DNA of 55,367 nucleotides from Rhodopseudomonas infernalis. GTDB taxonomy: Bacteria; Pseudomonadota; Alphaproteobacteria; Rhizobiales; Xanthobacteraceae. The notes under the pieces were generated by a model. It was given only the letters and a program-made list of their open reading frames with translations, was not told where the DNA came from and searched no databases. Positions 15,368-24,808 of this stretch are shown one piece after another. The DNA lies in contig NZ_JAJNAL010000035.1 in the NCBI RefSeq assembly GCF_022271405.1, positions 1 through 55,367 on the forward strand. The letters are read 5' to 3'. The first letter of the stretch is position 1; each line of letters begins with the position of its first letter. Both the position numbers and the translations under genes were made by a program.

Positions 15368-17968
15368 TCAACATTCTTTGGCTCCGGGGGGACACCTTTT
15401 GGGCGGACCGGCCGGCCGCGGCGGCGCGGCGACCCGTGGGGCGACCGGCGGCGGAGCGGCGCGAGGCGGCGCCGGCGGCGCGGCCATCCGCGGCGGAGGT
15501 GGCGGCGCCACGCGAGGCGGCGGCGGTGCTGCCATTCGCGGCGGCGGCGGAGCAGCCATCCGGGCTGGCGGCGCCACTCTCGCCGGCGGCGGGGCCGCAA
15601 TCCGCGGCTCGGGTCGCGGCGGTGGCGCGACACGTGGAGCAACGTGCATGGGCGGCGGAACCGGCCTGGCCACCGTCGGCGGCACCGGACGCGTCACCTG
15701 GGGCGGGACCGGCCGCCGTTCTGCTGTGCCGGCCGGCGGGCCCGGCGGCCGCGCCGGCGACACCACTGCCGGCGTCCGACGCATGGCCCCGGCATCTCCG
15801 GGGGATGGGGCCGGGTTGGCGGGTGCCAAAGCCGCAGCCGGAGGTGCCGGCGGCGTCGGTCCTGGCGGCTTTCCGCCGGGCGGCGGGGCTGCGGGCGTTT
15901 GCGGCGCCCCGGCGCGCGGCGCGGCGGCTGGACCATTGCTGCCCAGCCCCGGCCGAACGGCCGTCGGGCTGGTCGGCGCGCCCGCCGGGGTGCCAACACG
16001 CAATGTTTCGGCTGGTGGAGCGCCAAGTGCGGCACTGGGGACCGGCGGCGCACCTTTGGCTCCCGGAACCGGCAGCGCCTGTGCACCCGGGACCGCGACA
16101 GTCGGAGAGCCCTGCCCCGGGCGCCCCTGATTTGGAAGCTGCGGAGCGCCAGGACCAGTCGGCCGGCCCGGACTGGCGCCGGGCGCGGTCGTCACCGGCG
16201 GCGGCGATGTCACCGGCCCACCCGGCGCTGGCGACGTCTGGGGCGATGCCGGCGGCTGCTGCGCCAGCCGCGGTCCTTGCAACTGCACACCCGGGCGCGC
16301 CGCGAAGCCGCCTTGCGGCGCGGTGTTGACCGAAGCGCTCGGCGGCACCGCCGCCTTGCCTTCCTTGATCAGTGCGGCGCGCTGCATCACCGCGGCCGGC
16401 AGCGCGGCGCCGATCACGCCGCCAGCGAGCGCGGCCGACGCCAGGCCGGCCCGGCTCGGCACGACGGACGGTGCGCCGCCCGGCGCCGCGACGCCCGGCG
16501 GCGTGATCAGCGGCACGGCCGGATTGGCGGCCGGCGGCGGCTGGTTGATCACCTGGTTGATCACCGTGGTGTTGTGGATGTTGGCGAAGATGATGTTGTT
16601 CGGCGGCGGCTGGACATAGACCGGCGGCCGCACATAGGCCGGGATCGGCACGAACAGCGGACGCGGCAGATAGAACAGGCCGATCGGCGGCGGCGGTGGC
16701 GGCAGCACGACGAAATCGGGCGGCGGTGGCGGCAGGAAGTACACCGGCGCCGGCGGTGGCGGCGCGAAGTCGAACACCGGATCGCTGAACATCAGCACCG
16801 GCCGGTCGACATAGACGATCTCGTCCGGCGGCGGCGGCGGTACGTCGTAGTCGATCACCGTGAAGCTCGGCGGCGGCTCCAGCGCCGCGGCGAGGATCGC
16901 CAGCCGGCGCCGCGCGTCGGCAGCGTGTGGGCCGCGCGGATAGCGCCGCAGGTACGACCAATACGCGTCCGGCGTATCGACCCGGTAAGTGCGCCGCCAG
17001 GTGATCGCCTCGCGCCGCGCCGCGACGATCGCCCTCACCCGCTTGGCCAGCGGATCGTCCGGATAGGCGACGAGAAACTCCTCATAGGCCTGCAACGTGT
17101 CGCGATCGAGCGCGGCCGCATAAGCTTCGGACGCGCCGAGATCGCGGATAGGCTTACTCCGCAGCGTCTGATCGACCGCGGCCAGCGGCGGCGCGTCGGG
17201 CGCGCGATCGAAGAACATGAAGTTCGACTCGATCGTCCGCGTATCCCACGGCACCTGGGCGCCCTGGGTCGACTCGTTGACGCGCAGGCGAACGCGGTCG
17301 AACAGCTGCGGCAACGTCAGGCCGCCGGTCCGGATCATCTCGGCCAGCGCCTGCGCGTAAACGCCGTACGCGCCGCGTTCGTCGGGCGCCACGGTGCCGG
17401 GCGCGGCGTTGAAGGCAGTCAGCATCCTGGGATTCGGCTCGACCATCGCCAGCCCCGAAGCGATCGAGCCGGCGGGCACGAACGGCTGCTCGCGCGCCAG
17501 ATCGAGCGCCACCACGCTCGCCTTCAACGGCAGCGACGCGAGCTGGCGCATGTAGTCGCCGATCCGCAGCCCCTCGATCGGAATGTCCGTGTCGCGAGAT
17601 ATTCGGGAGTCGACCGGGATGAAGTAGTTCTCGCCGGCGTACTGTACGCCGTAGCCGGCGAGATAAATCGCCGCGACGGTGTCGGGTCCCGAGTCCTCGG
17701 CCTTCTTCATGAAGTCGCGGAAGGCACCGCGCAGCGTATCGCCGTCGAGGTCGCGGGCGCCGCTGACGTCGAAACCGGCGGCCTGCAGCGTCTGGGCGAT
17801 CAGGCCGCCGTCATTGGCGGCGGTCGAGAGCGGCGCCTTGGCGTAGGCGGCGTTGCCGATCACCAGCGCAATTCGCTTTTCCTGCTGCTGTGCAGAAGCG
17901 CCGTGCGGCGCGGCGATCAGCAAAACGACGAAGGCGGAGAACACCGAGAGGAGCGAAGAACCACGCAT
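15368..17968 (-). CDS. Secreted caspase-fold (C14-like) protein with lost catalytic residues
   Basis: Sequence starting MRGSSLLSVFSAFVVLL is a signal peptide ending at GASA near residue 26, so the product is exported. Residues 30-250 match the bacterial caspase-like p20 fold: KRIALVIGNAAY, a GHG-type loop and GENYFIPVD. Active family members have a GHG His and a DACR Cys. Here these read AGYGVQ (Tyr at residue 106) and LDLARE (Ala at residue 158), so proteolysis is not expected. The remaining 600 residues are Pro/Ala-rich, with PPPP runs near residues 420-470 and a long repetitive tail ending in GAKEC. Numbering uses the ATG at 17968; in-frame starts at 17986 and 18022 are possible. It is not a known member of the rpsB or dnaE clusters. 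Confidence 0.88.
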   Translation of the reverse strand: MRGSSLLSVFSAFVVLLIAAPHGASAQQQEKRIALVIGNAAYAKAPLSTAANDGGLIAQTLQAAGFDVSGARDLDGDTLRGAFRDFMKKAEDSGPDTVAAIYLAGYGVQYAGENYFIPVDSRISRDTDIPIEGLRIGDYMRQLASLPLKASVVALDLAREQPFVPAGSIASGLAMVEPNPRMLTAFNAAPGTVAPDERGAYGVYAQALAEMIRTGGLTLPQLFDRVRLRVNESTQGAQVPWDTRTIESNFMFFDRAPDAPPLAAVDQTLRSKPIRDLGASEAYAAALDRDTLQAYEEFLVAYPDDPLAKRVRAIVAARREAITWRRTYRVDTPDAYWSYLRRYPRGPHAADARRRLAILAAALEPPPSFTVIDYDVPPPPPDEIVYVDRPVLMFSDPVFDFAPPPPAPVYFLPPPPPDFVVLPPPPPPIGLFYLPRPLFVPIPAYVRPPVYVQPPPNNIIFANIHNTTVINQVINQPPPAANPAVPLITPPGVAAPGGAPSVVPSRAGLASAALAGGVIGAALPAAVMQRAALIKEGKAAVPPSASVNTAPQGGFAARPGVQLQGPRLAQQPPASPQTSPAPGGPVTSPPPVTTAPGASPGRPTGPGAPQLPNQGRPGQGSPTVAVPGAQALPVPGAKGAPPVPSAALGAPPAETLRVGTPAGAPTSPTAVRPGLGSNGPAAAPRAGAPQTPAAPPPGGKPPGPTPPAPPAAALAPANPAPSPGDAGAMRRTPAVVSPARPPGPPAGTAERRPVPPQVTRPVPPTVARPVPPPMHVAPRVAPPPRPEPRIAAPPPARVAPPARMAAPPPPRMAAPPPPRVAPPPPPRMAAPPAPPRAAPPPVAPRVAAPPRPAGPPKRCPPGAKEC

Positions 17969-18128
17969 GATCGTGACCTGATGCATGAGCGCCATCCGCA
18001 CCTGCGGATCGCCACGTCGCATAGTTCAGCGCGCCGAAGGATGAATGTCACTTGAACAAAACATGCCCTCACCGCAACGCCAGCGTGCTGCGCCGCACGG
18101 ACTGCGCACGCAAACCCCGGGGAGATCC

Positions 18129-21100
18129 TTACAGCGCCTGCACGTCGACCACGCCGGAGACCGCCTTGATGGCGCCGGCGATCTGCGGCGAGACCTTGTA
18201 GCGGCCGGGCAGCTTCATCTCGACCTCGGTCTCGAGGTCGAGCATCAGCACCAGCGAGACGTCGCCCTCGCCGCTCGATCGGCCCTGCGCCGGACTGGAC
18301 GGCGTGGCGCCTTCCAGACGCTTGGCGACCGAGTCGAGGAATTTGGTGTCGCGCAGGAAGATCCGCAGGCCCTTCTGCGCCTTGGCGGCGGCGGCATCGA
18401 GCGGCTCGGCGTGCAGCACGCGGGCGCGGACGTCCTCGCCTTGCAGCTCGGCGCCGAGCTGCAGCAGCACCGCCGCGCCGGGCTCGAGCACATCGCGATA
18501 TTGCGCCAGTCCCTCCGAGAACAGCACCGCCTCGAAATGCCCGGTCGGATCGGACAGGCCCATGATGCCCATCTTGTTGCCGGTCTTGGTGCGCCGCTCC
18601 ATCCGCGACACTACTGTCGCGGCGACCTTGCCGGCCGTCGCGCCGGATTTCACCGCCTTGCAGAAATCGGCCCACGACTGCACCCGCAGCCGCTTGAGCG
18701 CGGTGGTGTAGTCGTCGAGCGGATGGCCCGACAGGAAGAAGCCGATCGCGTCGTATTCGCGGCGCAGCCGCTCCGACGGCAGCCACGCTTCGATCTGCGG
18801 CAGCACGATCGACGGCGCATCCGGCAAGCTGCCGAACATGTCGTTCTGGCCGCTGGTGACGGCTTCGTTGGCGCGCTGGCAGGCAGCGACGATCGCATCG
18901 GCAGCGGCGGACACGCGCGCGCGGTTCGGATCAATGCAATCGAACGCACCCGCGGCGGCGAGGCATTCGACGACGCGCTTGTTGATGGCGCGCGGGCTGA
19001 CGCGCGCGGCAAAGTCGGCCAGCGAGGCGAACGGCTTGTCGCCGCGCGCTTCGACGATCTGCTGCACCGCCTGCATGCCGACGCCCTTTAGGCCGGCGAG
19101 CGCGTAGTAGATCGTGTTCTCGCCGACCTCGAAGGTTGCGCCCGAGCGGTTGACCGACGGCGCTTCGACCTTGATACCCAGCCGCTGCGCCTCGGCGCGG
19201 AATTCCGACAGCTTGTCGGTGTTGTTGATTTCCAGCGTCATCGACGCGGCGAGGAATTCGACGGGGTAATGCGCCTTCATGTAGGCGGTGTGGTACGACA
19301 CCAGCGCATAAGCGGCCGCATGGCTCTTGTTGAAGCCGTAGTCGGCGAACTTGGCCAACAGATCGAAGATGGTGTCGGCGGCGTCCTTGGCGACGCCGTT
19401 CTTCATCGCACCTTCGACGAAGATCGCGCGCTGCTTCTCCATTTCGGCGCGAATCTTCTTGCCCATCGCGCGGCGCAACAGGTCGGCTTCGCCGAGCGAG
19501 TAGCCGGCCATCACCTGGGCGATCTGCATCACCTGTTCTTGGTAGATGATGACGCCGAACGTTTCCTTGAGGATCGGCTCGAGCATCGGATGCAGATATT
19601 CCGGCTCCTCGTCGCCGTGTTTTCGCGCGCAGTAGGTCGGGATGTTGGCCATCGGGCCCGGACGATACAGCGCCACCAGCGCGATGATGTCCTCGAACCG
19701 GTCCGGCCGCATGTCGACCAGCGCGCGCCGCATGCCCTGGCTTTCAACCTGGAACACGCCGACCACATCGCCGCGCGCCAGCATCTGATAGCTCGGCGCG
19801 TCGTCGATCGGCAGCGTCGGCAGATCGACATGAATGTCGCGCTGCTTCAAGAGCTTCACCGCGACGTCGAGCACCGTCAGCGTCTTCAGGCCGAGGAAGT
19901 CGAATTTGACGAGGCCCGCCGGCTCCACCCACTTCATATTGAACTGGGTGACCGGCATGTCGGATTTCGGATCGCGATACATCGGCACGAGGTCCGACAG
20001 CGGCCGGTCGCCGATCACGATGCCCGCCGCGTGGGTCGAGGCGTGGCGGGTCAGGCCCTCGAGCTTCTGCGCGATGTCGAAGGCACGCGCCACCACCGGG
20101 TCCTCGTCGCGGAACGCCTGCAGCTTCGGCTCGCCCTCGATCGCTTGCTTCAGCGAGATCGGCGCGGCCGGATTCTGCGGCACCAGCTTGGTCAGCTTGT
20201 CGACCTGGCCGTACGGCATCTGCAGCACGCGGCCGACGTCGCGCAGCACGCCGCGCGCCTGCAGCGTGCCGAAGGTGATGATCTGCGCGACCTGATCGCG
20301 GCCGTAGCGCTGCTGCACGTAGTCGATGACTTCGCCGCGGCGGTCCTGGCAGAAGTCGATATCGAAGTCCGGCATCGAGACGCGTTCCGGATTGAGGAAG
20401 CGCTCGAACAGCAGGCCGAAGCGGATCGGATCGAGGTCCGTGATCGTGAGCGAATATGCCACCAGCGAGCCGGCGCCTGAGCCGCGGCCCGGGCCAACCG
20501 GAATACCCTGGGCCTTGGCCCATTTGATAAAGTCCGACACGATCAGGAAGTAGCCCGCGTATTTCATGCGGGTGATGACGTCGAGTTCGAAGGCGAGCCG
20601 CTTGCGGTAATCCTCCTCGGTCATGCCCGGCGACAGGCCGTGGACGCGCAGCCGCATCTCGAGCCCCTGCTCGGCCTGGCGGCGCAGCTCGGCGGCTTCG
20701 GCAGCGGCGGCCTCCTCGGCGTCGCTGACGTCGGCGCCGACGGTGAACAGCGGCAGGATCGGCTTGCGGGTCAGCGGCCGATAGGCGCAGCGCTGCGCGA
20801 TCTCCACCGTGGAAGCCAGCGCCTCGGGCAGATCGGCGAACAGCACGGCCATCTCGGCGCGGGTCTTGAAACGGTGGTCGGGCGTGAACTGGACGCGGTC
20901 GGCCTCGGCGATCAGCTTGCCCGAAGCGATGCACAGCAGCGCGTCGTGCGCCTCGAAATCGTCGGTCGTGGCGAAATGCGGTTCATTGGTCGCGACCAGC
21001 GGCAGGCCGGCGTCGTAAGCCAGATCGATCAGCCCCGCTTCCGCGCGTCGCTCGGAATCAGTGTTGTGGCGTTGCAGCTCGACATAGAGACGGTCGCCGA

Positions 21101-21605
21101 ACGCCTGCGCCAGCCGTTCGCAGCGCAGCCGCGCCAGTGCCGGATCGGACAGCATCGCCAGCGAGATCGGCCCATCCGGCCCGCCGGTCAGCGCGATGAC
21201 GTCCTCAGTCTCGCCGTCCAGCCAGTCGAACTTGATGTGCGGGGCCTGATTGACCGGCGTTTCCAGGAACGCCCGTGAGTTCAGCCGCATCAGGCTGCGA
21301 TAGCCGCGCTCGCGCGTCGCCAGCAGCACGATGCGGGACGGCAACGCCAACGCCGCGTTGCGCGAGGTCGGATCCTGATCGCCGAAATCGATCCCGAGTT
21401 CGAGACCGACGATCGGCTGGATGCCGCTGCCGGACAGCTTGTCGGAGAATTCCAGCGCGCCGAACATGTTGTCGGTGTCTGTCAGCGCCAGCGCCGGCTG
21501 GTGATCGGCCTTGGCGAGTTCCGCCAGCTTGGCGATCTTCATCGAGCCTTTCAGCAGCGAATAAGCCGAGTGAACGTGCAGGTGGACGAATCCGGCTTGG
21601 CTCAT
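18129..21605 (-). CDS. dnaE: DNA polymerase III subunit alpha
   Basis: Catalytic subunit of the replicative polymerase. The 1158-residue protein starts with a PHP domain (HLHVHSAYSLLKGS, residues 8-21). The C-family polymerase core has GPGRGSGAGSLVAYSL and the catalytic PDFDIDF near residue 410, plus FNKSHAAAYALVSYHTAYMK. A helix-hairpin-helix and an OB-fold region follow towards the C-terminus. Its length and motif order are those of the DnaE1 type. The nearest upstream gene is a LexA-box-controlled microprotein 195 bases away, so some SOS read-through into dnaE is possible but not shown. Confidence 0.97.
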   Translation of the reverse strand: MSQAGFVHLHVHSAYSLLKGSMKIAKLAELAKADHQPALALTDTDNMFGALEFSDKLSGSGIQPIVGLELGIDFGDQDPTSRNAALALPSRIVLLATRERGYRSLMRLNSRAFLETPVNQAPHIKFDWLDGETEDVIALTGGPDGPISLAMLSDPALARLRCERLAQAFGDRLYVELQRHNTDSERRAEAGLIDLAYDAGLPLVATNEPHFATTDDFEAHDALLCIASGKLIAEADRVQFTPDHRFKTRAEMAVLFADLPEALASTVEIAQRCAYRPLTRKPILPLFTVGADVSDAEEAAAAEAAELRRQAEQGLEMRLRVHGLSPGMTEEDYRKRLAFELDVITRMKYAGYFLIVSDFIKWAKAQGIPVGPGRGSGAGSLVAYSLTITDLDPIRFGLLFERFLNPERVSMPDFDIDFCQDRRGEVIDYVQQRYGRDQVAQIITFGTLQARGVLRDVGRVLQMPYGQVDKLTKLVPQNPAAPISLKQAIEGEPKLQAFRDEDPVVARAFDIAQKLEGLTRHASTHAAGIVIGDRPLSDLVPMYRDPKSDMPVTQFNMKWVEPAGLVKFDFLGLKTLTVLDVAVKLLKQRDIHVDLPTLPIDDAPSYQMLARGDVVGVFQVESQGMRRALVDMRPDRFEDIIALVALYRPGPMANIPTYCARKHGDEEPEYLHPMLEPILKETFGVIIYQEQVMQIAQVMAGYSLGEADLLRRAMGKKIRAEMEKQRAIFVEGAMKNGVAKDAADTIFDLLAKFADYGFNKSHAAAYALVSYHTAYMKAHYPVEFLAASMTLEINNTDKLSEFRAEAQRLGIKVEAPSVNRSGATFEVGENTIYYALAGLKGVGMQAVQQIVEARGDKPFASLADFAARVSPRAINKRVVECLAAAGAFDCIDPNRARVSAAADAIVAACQRANEAVTSGQNDMFGSLPDAPSIVLPQIEAWLPSERLRREYDAIGFFLSGHPLDDYTTALKRLRVQSWADFCKAVKSGATAGKVAATVVSRMERRTKTGNKMGIMGLSDPTGHFEAVLFSEGLAQYRDVLEPGAAVLLQLGAELQGEDVRARVLHAEPLDAAAAKAQKGLRIFLRDTKFLDSVAKRLEGATPSSPAQGRSSGEGDVSLVLMLDLETEVEMKLPGRYKVSPQIAGAIKAVSGVVDVQAL

Positions 21606-21724
21606 CGCGCGGCGACTCTCGATCAGGAAAGACGGCAGTCCGGGACGGCCGTCTCACAAAGCATGGGGTGAAGGTGCTCAGCCGGCGCGCGCAGCACAGC
21701 CGACTCGGCCTGATGGTGATCCCC

Positions 21725-21755
21725 GGGAGCCGGCCGCGCAAGCCGGTCGCCTCCC
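21725..21755 (-). other. Imperfect hairpin between microprotein and dnaE
   Basis: GGGAG...CTCCC outer pairs and CCGGC/GCCGG inner pairs with a 4-base bulge and 7-base loop lie in the 195-base gap. No U-tract follows. It could limit read-through from the SOS promoter into dnaE. The rest of the gap shows nothing identifiable. Confidence 0.25.
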
Positions 21756-21800
21756 TTGTCCCCGCTATTGCCTCGCCGCCGAGGGTGCGGGTCTGTGCCG

Positions 21801-21899
21801 TCAGAGCTGCGGAAGCACCTGCGCCCACACCGCAACCATGCTGATGAACAGCACGATCGATGTCAGTACCGCAGCTTCCTGAATGAAAATCTTCAGCAT
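21801..21899 (-). CDS. SOS-controlled 32-residue membrane microprotein (SidA-like candidate)
   Basis: A 32-codon gene with a strong AGAGGGAGG Shine-Dalgarno 6 bases before its ATG. The peptide begins MLKIFIQEAAVLTS and is one hydrophobic helix (about residues 9-29) ending in WAQVLPQL. Two LexA-type direct repeats (GTTC-N7-GTTC) overlap its promoter, so it should be induced by DNA damage. Caulobacter SidA is a 29-residue inner-membrane peptide made in the SOS response that blocks division through the FtsW complex; the size, topology and regulation here are the same. Homology is inferred from these features and not from an alignment. Longer in-frame starts lack Shine-Dalgarno sequences and would run through the LexA boxes. 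Confidence 0.82.
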   Translation of the reverse strand: MLKIFIQEAAVLTSIVLFISMVAVWAQVLPQL

Positions 21900-21922
21900 C
21901 GTCCGCCTCCCTCTGACTTCGT

Positions 21923-21937
21923 GAACATATGCAGAAC
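21923..21937 (-). promoter_or_regulatory. LexA (SOS) box 1
   Basis: Plus strand reads GAAC-N7-GAAC, the direct-repeat LexA operator of alphaproteobacteria. It overlaps the last three bases of the predicted -10 (21935-21940) of the microprotein promoter, 24 bases upstream of its ATG. Confidence 0.75.
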
Positions 21938-21964
21938 ATAGTTCTTCTTTTGTTCTTGAGTCAA
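21935..21964 (-). promoter_or_regulatory. Promoter of the SOS microprotein
   Basis: Minus strand TTGACT (-35, 21959-21964, 5 of 6 matches) and TATGTT (-10, 21935-21940, 4 of 6) with an 18-base spacer occupied by LexA box 2. Confidence 0.6.
21941..21955 (-). promoter_or_regulatory. LexA (SOS) box 2
   Basis: Plus strand reads GTTC-TTCTTTT-GTTC, a near-ideal alphaproteobacterial SOS box. It lies wholly between the predicted -35 and -10, so bound LexA would exclude RNA polymerase. It is 3 bases from box 1, which makes a tandem pair. Confidence 0.82.
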
Positions 21965-22133
21965 GCGAACGGATGCGAGCCGCCCTCGAAGCCCTAACAA
22001 CTCGTAAACGCCGAGAGGTTGTCCCCGCTTCCCACCGATTGACGGGAACGGCAACACGGCGCACGGGTTGGCGGTCGGAGCCGGCGAGCCCACCGCCTGC
22101 GCGCCTCAACCGATTTCAGGCTGGAGATCCATC

Positions 22134-22382
22134 ATGCGCGTTCAATCGATGATTTTGCTGGCGGGCCTGGCGTCGCTCGCCCTGCCCTCGGCCGCCTCGG
22201 CGCAGCCGACCGACAACTACCCGGTCTGTCTGCGGGTCTATGGCCCGGTGCGCTACGACGAGTGCCGCTATGTCTCGATCGAGCAGTGCCGGCCCTCGGC
22301 CAGCGGCATTGCCGGCCAATGCGTCACGAATCCCTGGTATCAACCACCGAGCGCCCCCGCCCGGCGCCATCGCGGGCGTTGA
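22134..22382 (+). CDS. Small secreted DUF3551 protein, copy 1
   Basis: 82-residue protein with a signal peptide (MRVQSMILLAGLASLALP, cleavage near ASA-Q). The mature part carries the DUF3551 pattern: YPVCLRVY, then D-E-C-R-Y and E-Q-C with a final GQCVTNPWY, giving four conserved cysteines likely to form disulphides. GGAGAT lies 5 bases upstream of the ATG. The family is common and often multi-copy in Bradyrhizobiaceae; its function is unknown. It runs divergently from the SOS microprotein and is followed 27 bases later by a paralogue. Confidence 0.88.
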   Translation: MRVQSMILLAGLASLALPSAASAQPTDNYPVCLRVYGPVRYDECRYVSIEQCRPSASGIAGQCVTNPWYQPPSAPARRHRGR

Positions 22383-22806: not shown

Positions 22807-23535
22807 CTATTCCAGCTCCACCACCACGCCGTCTTCAATCGACACGCGGCGGTCCATGCGGCCGGCCAGTTCCATGTTGTGGGTGGCGATCAGCATCGAC
22901 ACCTGGGTGGCGCGGACGAGCTGCATCAGCGCCTGGAAGACATGGTCGGCGGTGTGCGGGTCGAGGTTGCCGGTCGGCTCGTCGGCGAACAGGACACGCG
23001 GCGCGTTGGCCACCGCGCGGGCGATCGCGACGCGCTGCTGCTCGCCGCCCGACAGTTCAGCGGGGCGATGGGTGATGCGGTCGCCGAGGCCGAGATAGGC
23101 CAGGATTTCCTTGGAGCGGCTGATGGTTTCGCTGCGCTTCAGGCCGCGGATCATCTGCGGCATCATCACGTTTTCCAGCGCGGTGAATTCCGGCAGCAGC
23201 CGGTGCGACTGGTAGACGAAGCCGATATCGGTACGGCGGATCTGGGTGCGCTCGGCGTCCGACAGGCCCGACGTCGCGGTGCCGCCGACATAGACCTCGC
23301 CCTCGTCCGGATGTTCGAGCAGGCCGGCGATGTGCAGCAGCGTCGATTTGCCGGAGCCCGACGGCGCCACCAGCGCCACCGACTGCCCGGCCCACAGCGC
23401 CAGCTTGGCGCCGTTGAGGATCGTCAGATGCGCCTCGCCCTGAACGTATTGGCGTTTGATGTCGTGCAGATACACGACCGGGATGTCTTCCGCGCCCTGC
23501 TCCAGATCCTGCGCCATGTCCGCCGCCTCACTCAT
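22807..23535 (-). CDS. lolD: Lipoprotein-releasing ABC transporter ATP-binding protein
   Basis: ATPase of the LolCDE complex that releases outer-membrane lipoproteins from the inner membrane to LolA. The protein (242 residues from this start) shows Walker [10 protein letters not shown] (residues 57-65), with Ala in place of the usual first Gly, the signature [14 protein letters not shown] and Walker [13 protein letters not shown]. The ATG at 23535 overlaps the end of the upstream permease gene by 8 bases; an alternative ATG at 23517 is just after it. Confidence 0.95.
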
Positions 23536-24808
23536 ACCGGAGCGCATCCACGGGATCGAGCCGCGCCGCGCGCCACGACGGATACAGCGTCGCCAGGAAC
23601 GACAGCGTCAGCGCCATGATCACGACCGCGCTGGTCTCGGCGAAATCGACCTCGGCCGGCAGCTTGGACAGGAAGTACAGCTCCGGCGAGAACAGTTCGG
23701 TGTTGGTGACCCAGGACAGGAATTGCCGGATCGACTCGATGTTCATGCAGATCAGCAGGCCGACCGCGAAGCCGGTCAGCGTGCCGACAACGCCGATCGC
23801 CGCCCCGGTGATCAGGAAGATCCGCATGATCGAGCCCTGTGTCGCTCCCATGGTGCGCAGGATGGCGATGTCGCTGCCCTTGTCCTTCACCAGCATGATC
23901 AGGCCGGACACGATGTTGAGCGCCGCCACCAGCACGATCAGCGTCAGGATCAGGAACATCACGTTGCGCTCGACCTGCAGCGCGTTGAAGAAGGTCGAAT
24001 TGCGCTGCCGCCAGTCGACCAGGAACACCGGCCGCCCCGCCGCCTCGGTGACCGCCTTTCGGAAGACGTCGATGCGGTCCGGATTGGTGGTGTAGACCTC
24101 GATCGCGGTCACGTCGTTGTTGCGGTTGAAGTAGGCCTGCGCCTCCTTCAGCGGCATGAACACGAAGGTCGAGTCGTATTCCGACATGCCGATCTCGAAC
24201 ACCGCCGCCACCTTGTAGGGCTTGATCCGAGGCGTGGTGCCCATCGGCGTCACGGCGCCGCGCGGCGCCACCAGCGTGACGCTGTCGCCGGCGTGCAGCG
24301 ACAGCTGATCGGCGAGCCGGCGGCCGATTGCGACGCCCTGCCCATCGTCGAAGCCTTCGAGCGAGCCCTGCTTGATGTGGTTGGCGATCGACGACAAATT
24401 GTTGAGGTCGTCGGCACGGATGCCGCGCACGAACACGCCCGAAGCGTTGAACGGCGATGACGCCAGCGCCTGGCCGTCGACGACCGGCGCCGCCAGCTTG
24501 ATGCCGGACACGCCGCTGATGCGGTCCGCGACGTCCTTCCAGTCGGTCAGCGGGCTCTCCAACGGCTGCACCAGCAGGTGGCCGTTGAGCCCGAGGATCT
24601 TGTCGAGCAGTTCCTTGCGGAAGCCGTTCATCACCGCCATGACGATGATCAGCGTCGCCACGCCCAGCATGATGCCGAGGAACGAGAAGCCGGCGATCAC
24701 CGAGATGAATCCCTCACGGCGGCGCGCACGGAGGTAGCGCCCGGAGAGGAGCCATTCGAATGGCGCGAAGGGGGGAGTTCGAACTGGCTCAGTCATGCTG
24801 TGATCCAT
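23528..24808 (-). CDS. lolC: Lipoprotein-releasing ABC transporter permease (LolC/LolE family)
   Basis: Inner-membrane permease partner of LolD. The 426-residue protein has one membrane helix near residues 38-62, a large periplasmic domain (about 70-290) and three C-terminal helices, ending in [17 protein letters not shown], the usual FtsX/MacB-type end. Alphaproteobacteria generally use a single LolC/E-type permease as a homodimer, which fits the single copy here. An internal ATG at 24796 is an alternative start. It lies 54 bases after proS. Confidence 0.95.

Follow-up and report, generated by a model that had tools for sequence, protein, structure and literature searches.

The closest described counterpart of the locus analyzed here is SidA of Caulobacter, reported as a 29-residue inner-membrane SOS inhibitor that acts on FtsW (PMC4211646). 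Its length of 29 aa, its LexA control and its action on FtsW are taken from this source together with a second one (PMC12700426). FtsW also figures in work on other inhibitors: YneA interacts with it, and SidA, SosA and ChiZ have been modeled on its TM7 (PMC13396833). The 2014 paper counts sidA among the 'unrelated genes' of various species (PMC4211646), and our search of the open-licence literature found no SidA-type peptide described for Rhizobiales. Here we describe a candidate SidA counterpart in Rhodopseudomonas infernalis, encoded within a 55,367-nt stretch of DNA (the window).

A 32-codon gene with a putative LexA operator upstream of dnaE

The sidA-like gene lies on the minus strand (21899–21801, with the stop codon TGA at 21803–21801) and encodes a peptide of 32 aa, MLKIFIQEAAVLTSIVLFISMVAVWAQVLPQL, an assignment based on ORF reading, homologs and dN/dS. 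A strong Shine-Dalgarno sequence, AGAGGGAGG (21914–21906), is read six bases 5′ of the ATG on the same strand. The reading frame stays open in the 5′ direction as far as a TTG at 22109, but homologs begin at the ATG behind the Shine-Dalgarno sequence and not at this TTG. Hydropathy leads us to expect a single membrane span (best 19-residue mean 2.26). None of the Pfam or NCBIfam family models matched the peptide at E up to 0.1.

The gene is preceded by a sigma-70-type promoter, TTGACT-18-TATGTT (21964–21935, minus strand), which has 9 of 12 consensus bases and is the sole promoter-like site detected by a promoter scan of 21590–22120. LexA box 1, GAACAAAAGAAGAAC in minus-strand letters (21941–21955), falls within the promoter spacer, and LexA box 2, GTTCTGCATATGTTC (21923–21937, also minus strand), shares three bases with the 3′ end of the −10 hexamer. 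Given this placement, bound LexA should exclude polymerase. The preliminary description had proposed the ORF, its Shine-Dalgarno sequence, the promoter and the two LexA boxes, and the sequence bears out every one of these elements.

Downstream, at a distance of 195 nt, is dnaE (18129–21605, minus strand), which encodes DnaE1, the replicative DNA polymerase III alpha subunit, and matches the NF004226 equivalog above its curated cut-off. Our window scan found no terminator-like site between the two genes, so dnaE may be co-transcribed with the peptide gene. The stretch between the peptide stop and dnaE (21801–21605) contains GANTC sites, at which CcrM methylates DNA; GANTC occurs no more than 150 nt past the peptide stop in 25 of 30 loci, an uncontrolled count that comes mostly from one genus.

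The upstream neighbor is an ABC-transporter ATPase gene (22807–23547, minus strand; Pfam ABC_tran), which we take to be LolD-like from its position. In the interval separating the SidA-like gene from the ABC-transporter genes are two adjacent, divergently oriented genes for small DUF3551 proteins (PF12071; 22134–22382 and 22398–22673, plus strand). On the far side of dnaE, 15368–18022 (minus strand) encodes a protein of 884 residues in which a Peptidase_C14 caspase domain (PF00656) precedes an extended tail rich in proline. Its translation has GYG where a GHG motif would be expected and ALDLAREQP in place of the expected cysteine motif. Judged from its sequence, the protein may be inactive.

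Conservation of the peptide and its operator

Every one of the 16 genus genomes has a homolog of the peptide, as do 31 of 61 relatives. Homologs were also detected in 149 of 198 family genomes (E up to 0.01) and in 32 of 199 order genomes (E up to 0.05), some of the latter matches being spurious. Across the 16 genus genomes, the pooled dN/dS of 0.123 indicates purifying selection, and varying columns number 11, 5 and 23 of 32 at codon positions 1, 2 and 3, respectively. Over the family as a whole the hydrophobic span is retained, and little is conserved besides D/E-x-A-A-L, F and W, which points to fast evolution of the peptide. The narrow family profile (A1), run against 289 class genomes, returned the own genome and three weak matches with no dnaE nearby. 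A tblastn search of plasmid records with one homolog as the query gave no match at E up to 1.

Linkage to dnaE is tight. The polymerase gene is downstream of the peptide in all 30 loci fetched first; of the 47 later loci considered genuine, 45 also have it there. Five more loci, all without dnaE (L061–L063, L111 and L112), were treated as false matches. Among the 77 genuine loci, 55 have the ABC-transporter gene on the upstream side, the tested flank being at most 1.5 kb. All of the first 30 loci have TTGAC 5′ of the peptide, 27 have both exact boxes (L025, L027 and L028 retain one), and 26 preserve the exact N3 arrangement. Lack of conservation of the frame and boxes in sister species had been set beforehand as grounds for rejecting the proposal; both are conserved there, and the same gene again lies upstream of dnaE.

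Single boxes are uninformative within the window, where two exact boxes were counted against 1.63 expected and 49 of 100 shuffles reached two. Since this result was not significant, we relied instead on the double operator. Genome-wide, the single exact GTTC-N7-GTTC occurs 127 times (63+64), compared with 53 (30+23) for the reversed control, and the complete arrangement GAAC-N7-GAAC-N3-GTTC-N7-GTTC occurs at one place in the 5.5-Mb genome, its reversed control at none. In related genomes the double operator was found at 29 places in 28 of 61 genomes, compared with zero for the control. When coordinates were compared with homolog and survey matches, all 29 turned out to precede this dnaE-linked peptide. 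For comparison, about 97% of the SOS promoters of Caulobacter are reported to have a single box (PMC12700426).

Four relatives (G018, G031, G032 and G036) have the peptide and lack the exact double arrangement. Another relative, G019, carries two peptide copies (on C427 and C504), each with a complete double operator, which could represent either a duplication or assembly redundancy.

The chance level of single boxes in the window would fit a fortuitous ORF preceded by fortuitous boxes. However, conservation and purifying selection already refute this explanation and the double operator also opposes it; we dropped it and give it practically no credence. As far as sequence can tell, the putative LexA operator at the peptide promoter is well supported.

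Other LexA boxes in the genome

One LexA gene was detected in the genome, and roughly 100 nt 5′ of its start there is an exact box. Box neighborhoods were inspected at 30 of the 127 genomic box loci. One of these boxes (L037; G000:C1:284723-284737) lies between two divergent genes: one is ImuA-like and scores below its family cut-off, the other is a repair radical-SAM gene (rSAM_link_UDG) that scores above its own. The box is likely a shared SOS operator of the ImuA-like and putative repair radical-SAM genes. Another is near a 3-methyladenine-glycosylase-like gene (below cut-off), and others are intragenic or precede unrelated genes, for example that of a hydrogenase subunit.

A survey of regions upstream of dnaE

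In place of the class-wide A1 search, we surveyed regions anchored on dnaE, extending up to 700 nt 5′ of it, without using the peptide sequence. A candidate was defined as a hydrophobic ORF of 22–50 codons with a Shine-Dalgarno sequence and a LexA-type box at most 130 nt upstream, the box being either exact or having one mismatch together with AAA/TTT at the inner edge. The order sample comprised 97 of 100 dnaE-matching genomes (the own genome, G549 and G522 were excluded), and the rest of the class was represented by the best 80 of 133 genomes by score; two surveyed regions (L263 and L426) ended at contig ends. Candidates were present in 49 of the 97 order genomes and 14 of the 80 best-scoring other class genomes, counts that are uncleaned and include doubtful cases such as L267. 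The opposite strand, serving as control, had a candidate in 1 of the 97 genomes and in none of the 80. About half of the 97 order genomes had no candidate in this dnaE-anchored survey; given the fast evolution of the peptide, such absences may be genuine or may be misses. Candidates are 24 to 47 residues long, and the gap between the peptide and the dnaE match ranges from 34 to 316 nt, with the largest value coming from a doubtful candidate.

Such a fixed position before dnaE could mean that the boxes place dnaE itself under LexA and that the short ORF is a leader tuning dnaE translation or transcription. Read-through into dnaE, with no terminator-like site in between, would be compatible with this role. 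Yet a dN/dS of 0.123 indicates selection on the amino acids, the hydrophobic span is retained while the letters change, and the spacing to dnaE is far from conserved (the 34 to 316 nt above, doubtful maximum included). Because of the selection on amino acids and the variable spacing, we consider a dnaE leader decidedly unlikely.

Relationship to Caulobacter SidA

The peptide had been proposed as a functional counterpart of SidA, and we asked how it relates to peptides in the same position elsewhere in the class. Named genomes were reached via a CcrM search, and dnaE was then sought in the genomes behind 28 of its 80 loci. All 12 Caulobacterales have a membrane peptide of 29–30 residues just 5′ of dnaE. 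The same slot is occupied in both Parvibaculum genomes (by a longer peptide), in both Maricaulis genomes and in one Marinicaulis, bringing the total to 17 of 28. In the other 11 genomes (nine of Rhodobacterales type, Thalassospira and Paramagnetospirillum) no LexA-boxed peptide was seen upstream of dnaE. An exact LexA box accompanies the peptide in seven of the 12 Caulobacterales, C. vibrioides among them, and the other five have near matches as judged by eye.

In C. vibrioides DSM 9893 the peptide upstream of dnaE has 29 residues. Published locus tags for Caulobacter are CC1926 for dnaE and CC1902 for lexA (PMC1839093), CCNA_01979 for LexA (PMC11535069) and CCNA_02004 for sidA (PMC10769358). 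With a constant offset of 77 (CC1902 to CCNA_01979), dnaE would be CCNA_02003 and would adjoin sidA. From this tag arithmetic, as opposed to annotation, we infer that the dnaE-adjacent peptide of C. vibrioides is the published SidA. Neither the letters of SidA nor the tag CCNA_02003 was found in print in the open-licence literature.

In addition to A1, we used profiles of 23 own-order peptides (A2), of the 12 Caulobacterales peptides (A3) and of 50 rows without the named Caulobacterales (A4). The rows of A4 were drawn from survey candidates, earlier homologs, Maricaulis, Parvibaculum and Marinicaulis; they were picked by eye, near-duplicates and odd ones were removed, and four rows were shortened and supplied with Met. 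Compared with A3, A1 reached a probability of 25% and A2 a P of 3.4e-6, a score attained by none of 300 within-block column permutations. For A4, whose freedom from any Caulobacterales rests, for some class rows, on row appearance, P was 1.4e-7 and again none of 300 permutations reached the score. The aligned core, E-x5-S-x3-F-x2-M, corresponds to E8, S14, F18 and M21 of the window peptide and to E7, S13, F17 and M20 of the C. vibrioides peptide.

In genome-wide searches, A2 ranked the dnaE-adjacent ORF first in nine of the 17 genomes having one and matched the Maricaulis peptides at E values of 2.6e-5 and 0.024; the C. vibrioides DSM 9893 peptide was unmatched by A2 at E up to 10. With A4, the dnaE-adjacent peptide was the top match in 11 of 12 Caulobacterales at weak E values of 0.001 to 0.3, including 0.003 for C. 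vibrioides DSM 9893, and the Asticcacaulis peptide was missed even with this profile.

Low sequence identity, and the ease with which short hydrophobic peptides can be aligned, leave room for convergence: the window peptide would be an SOS-induced division inhibitor, but an unrelated small span would have arrived at the slot of SidA. DidA, a second Caulobacter inhibitor that binds FtsN, indicates that unrelated peptides can do this job (PMC4211646). Against convergence, both the slot and the LexA-type boxes are held in common with Caulobacter, the profile similarity twice exceeded 300 permutations, and the own-order profile A2 finds the Maricaulis peptides genome-wide. We therefore regard convergence as very improbable. 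The 29-residue Caulobacter peptide in the same slot suggests that the window peptide is a positional and sequence ortholog, in support of the proposed SidA counterpart, and the 32-residue peptide is most likely a SidA ortholog.

The main rival to this assignment, which we find rather unlikely, is an SOS-induced membrane toxin of the TisB/DinQ type that would depolarize the membrane and slow the cell while leaving the divisome untouched. E. coli does have LexA-controlled single-span peptides with depolarizing action, such as DinQ (PMC3567139), and the size and hydropathy of the window peptide (best 19-residue mean 2.26) are compatible with such a role. However, the opposite strand has no promoter-like site in the 21590–22120 scan, and a comparison of 21500–22200 with Rfam yielded nothing at E values up to 0.5. 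There is thus no sign of an antisense antitoxin, although such scans cannot exclude one. The profile relationship and the slot shared with the Caulobacter peptide also speak against a toxin.

A putative damage checkpoint and its implications

We consider it probable that the locus as a whole comprises a sidA ortholog that is repressed by LexA and induced by damage, and whose product holds the late divisome inactive by analogy with Caulobacter. LexA would sit on the palindromic double operator, within and just past the promoter, and keep the gene silent. Upon DNA damage, RecA-driven cleavage of LexA would free the promoter, and the 32-residue peptide with its single membrane span would be produced. 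In analogy to Caulobacter SidA, the peptide would then keep the late divisome (FtsW/FtsI/FtsN) inactive, and division would wait for repair. LexA binding and damage induction at this locus are predicted from the operator, as are the insertion of the peptide into the membrane and its orientation from its hydrophobic span, and FtsW is the presumed divisome target by analogy.

These results suggest that the damage checkpoint is widespread in alphaproteobacteria and not a Caulobacter oddity. A bolder proposal, on which we are evenly divided, is that SidA represents an ancestral and extremely divergent alphaproteobacterial family before dnaE, with the SOS division brake and the replicative polymerase kept together across much of the class, perhaps as one LexA-controlled transcription unit. 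If this is true, the order of the window, Caulobacterales, relatives of Maricaulis and Parvibaculum use the same hidden checkpoint, which would have been overlooked because its genes have 24 to 47 codons and their letters are barely conserved. Should SidA belong to such a dnaE-linked family, division arrest under DNA damage would become testable in many alphaproteobacterial laboratory strains, LexA boxes near dnaE could be credited to the peptide instead, and natural variants would be at hand by the dozen to map what a 30-residue divisome stopper needs.

Comparison with known systems

YneA, SosA and ChiZ resemble the window peptide, by description, in being damage-induced membrane division inhibitors (PMC13396833), but they belong to Gram-positive species and mycobacteria, and YneA and ChiZ have a LysM domain. 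Caulobacter DidA is likewise a small, damage-induced membrane division inhibitor (PMC4211646); the likeness is one of description, and DidA differs in being SOS-independent and in binding FtsN. TisB and DinQ of E. coli share LexA control and a single span (PMC3567139), but are type I toxin–antitoxin components with an antisense RNA and depolarize the membrane, whereas the promoter and Rfam scans of the window locus gave no such RNA signal.

SidA of Caulobacter crescentus (CCNA_02004) differs in its length of 29 rather than 32 residues. The window has a palindromic double operator, whereas the boxes of Caulobacterales are partly inexact, and the W25-A26 pair close to the end characterizes the window family alone. 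On the other hand, both are single-span peptides of about 30 residues with LexA-type boxes, both precede dnaE (for SidA, as deduced for NA1000 and seen in C. vibrioides DSM 9893), and the E-x5-S-x3-F-x2-M core is common to the window and C. vibrioides peptides.
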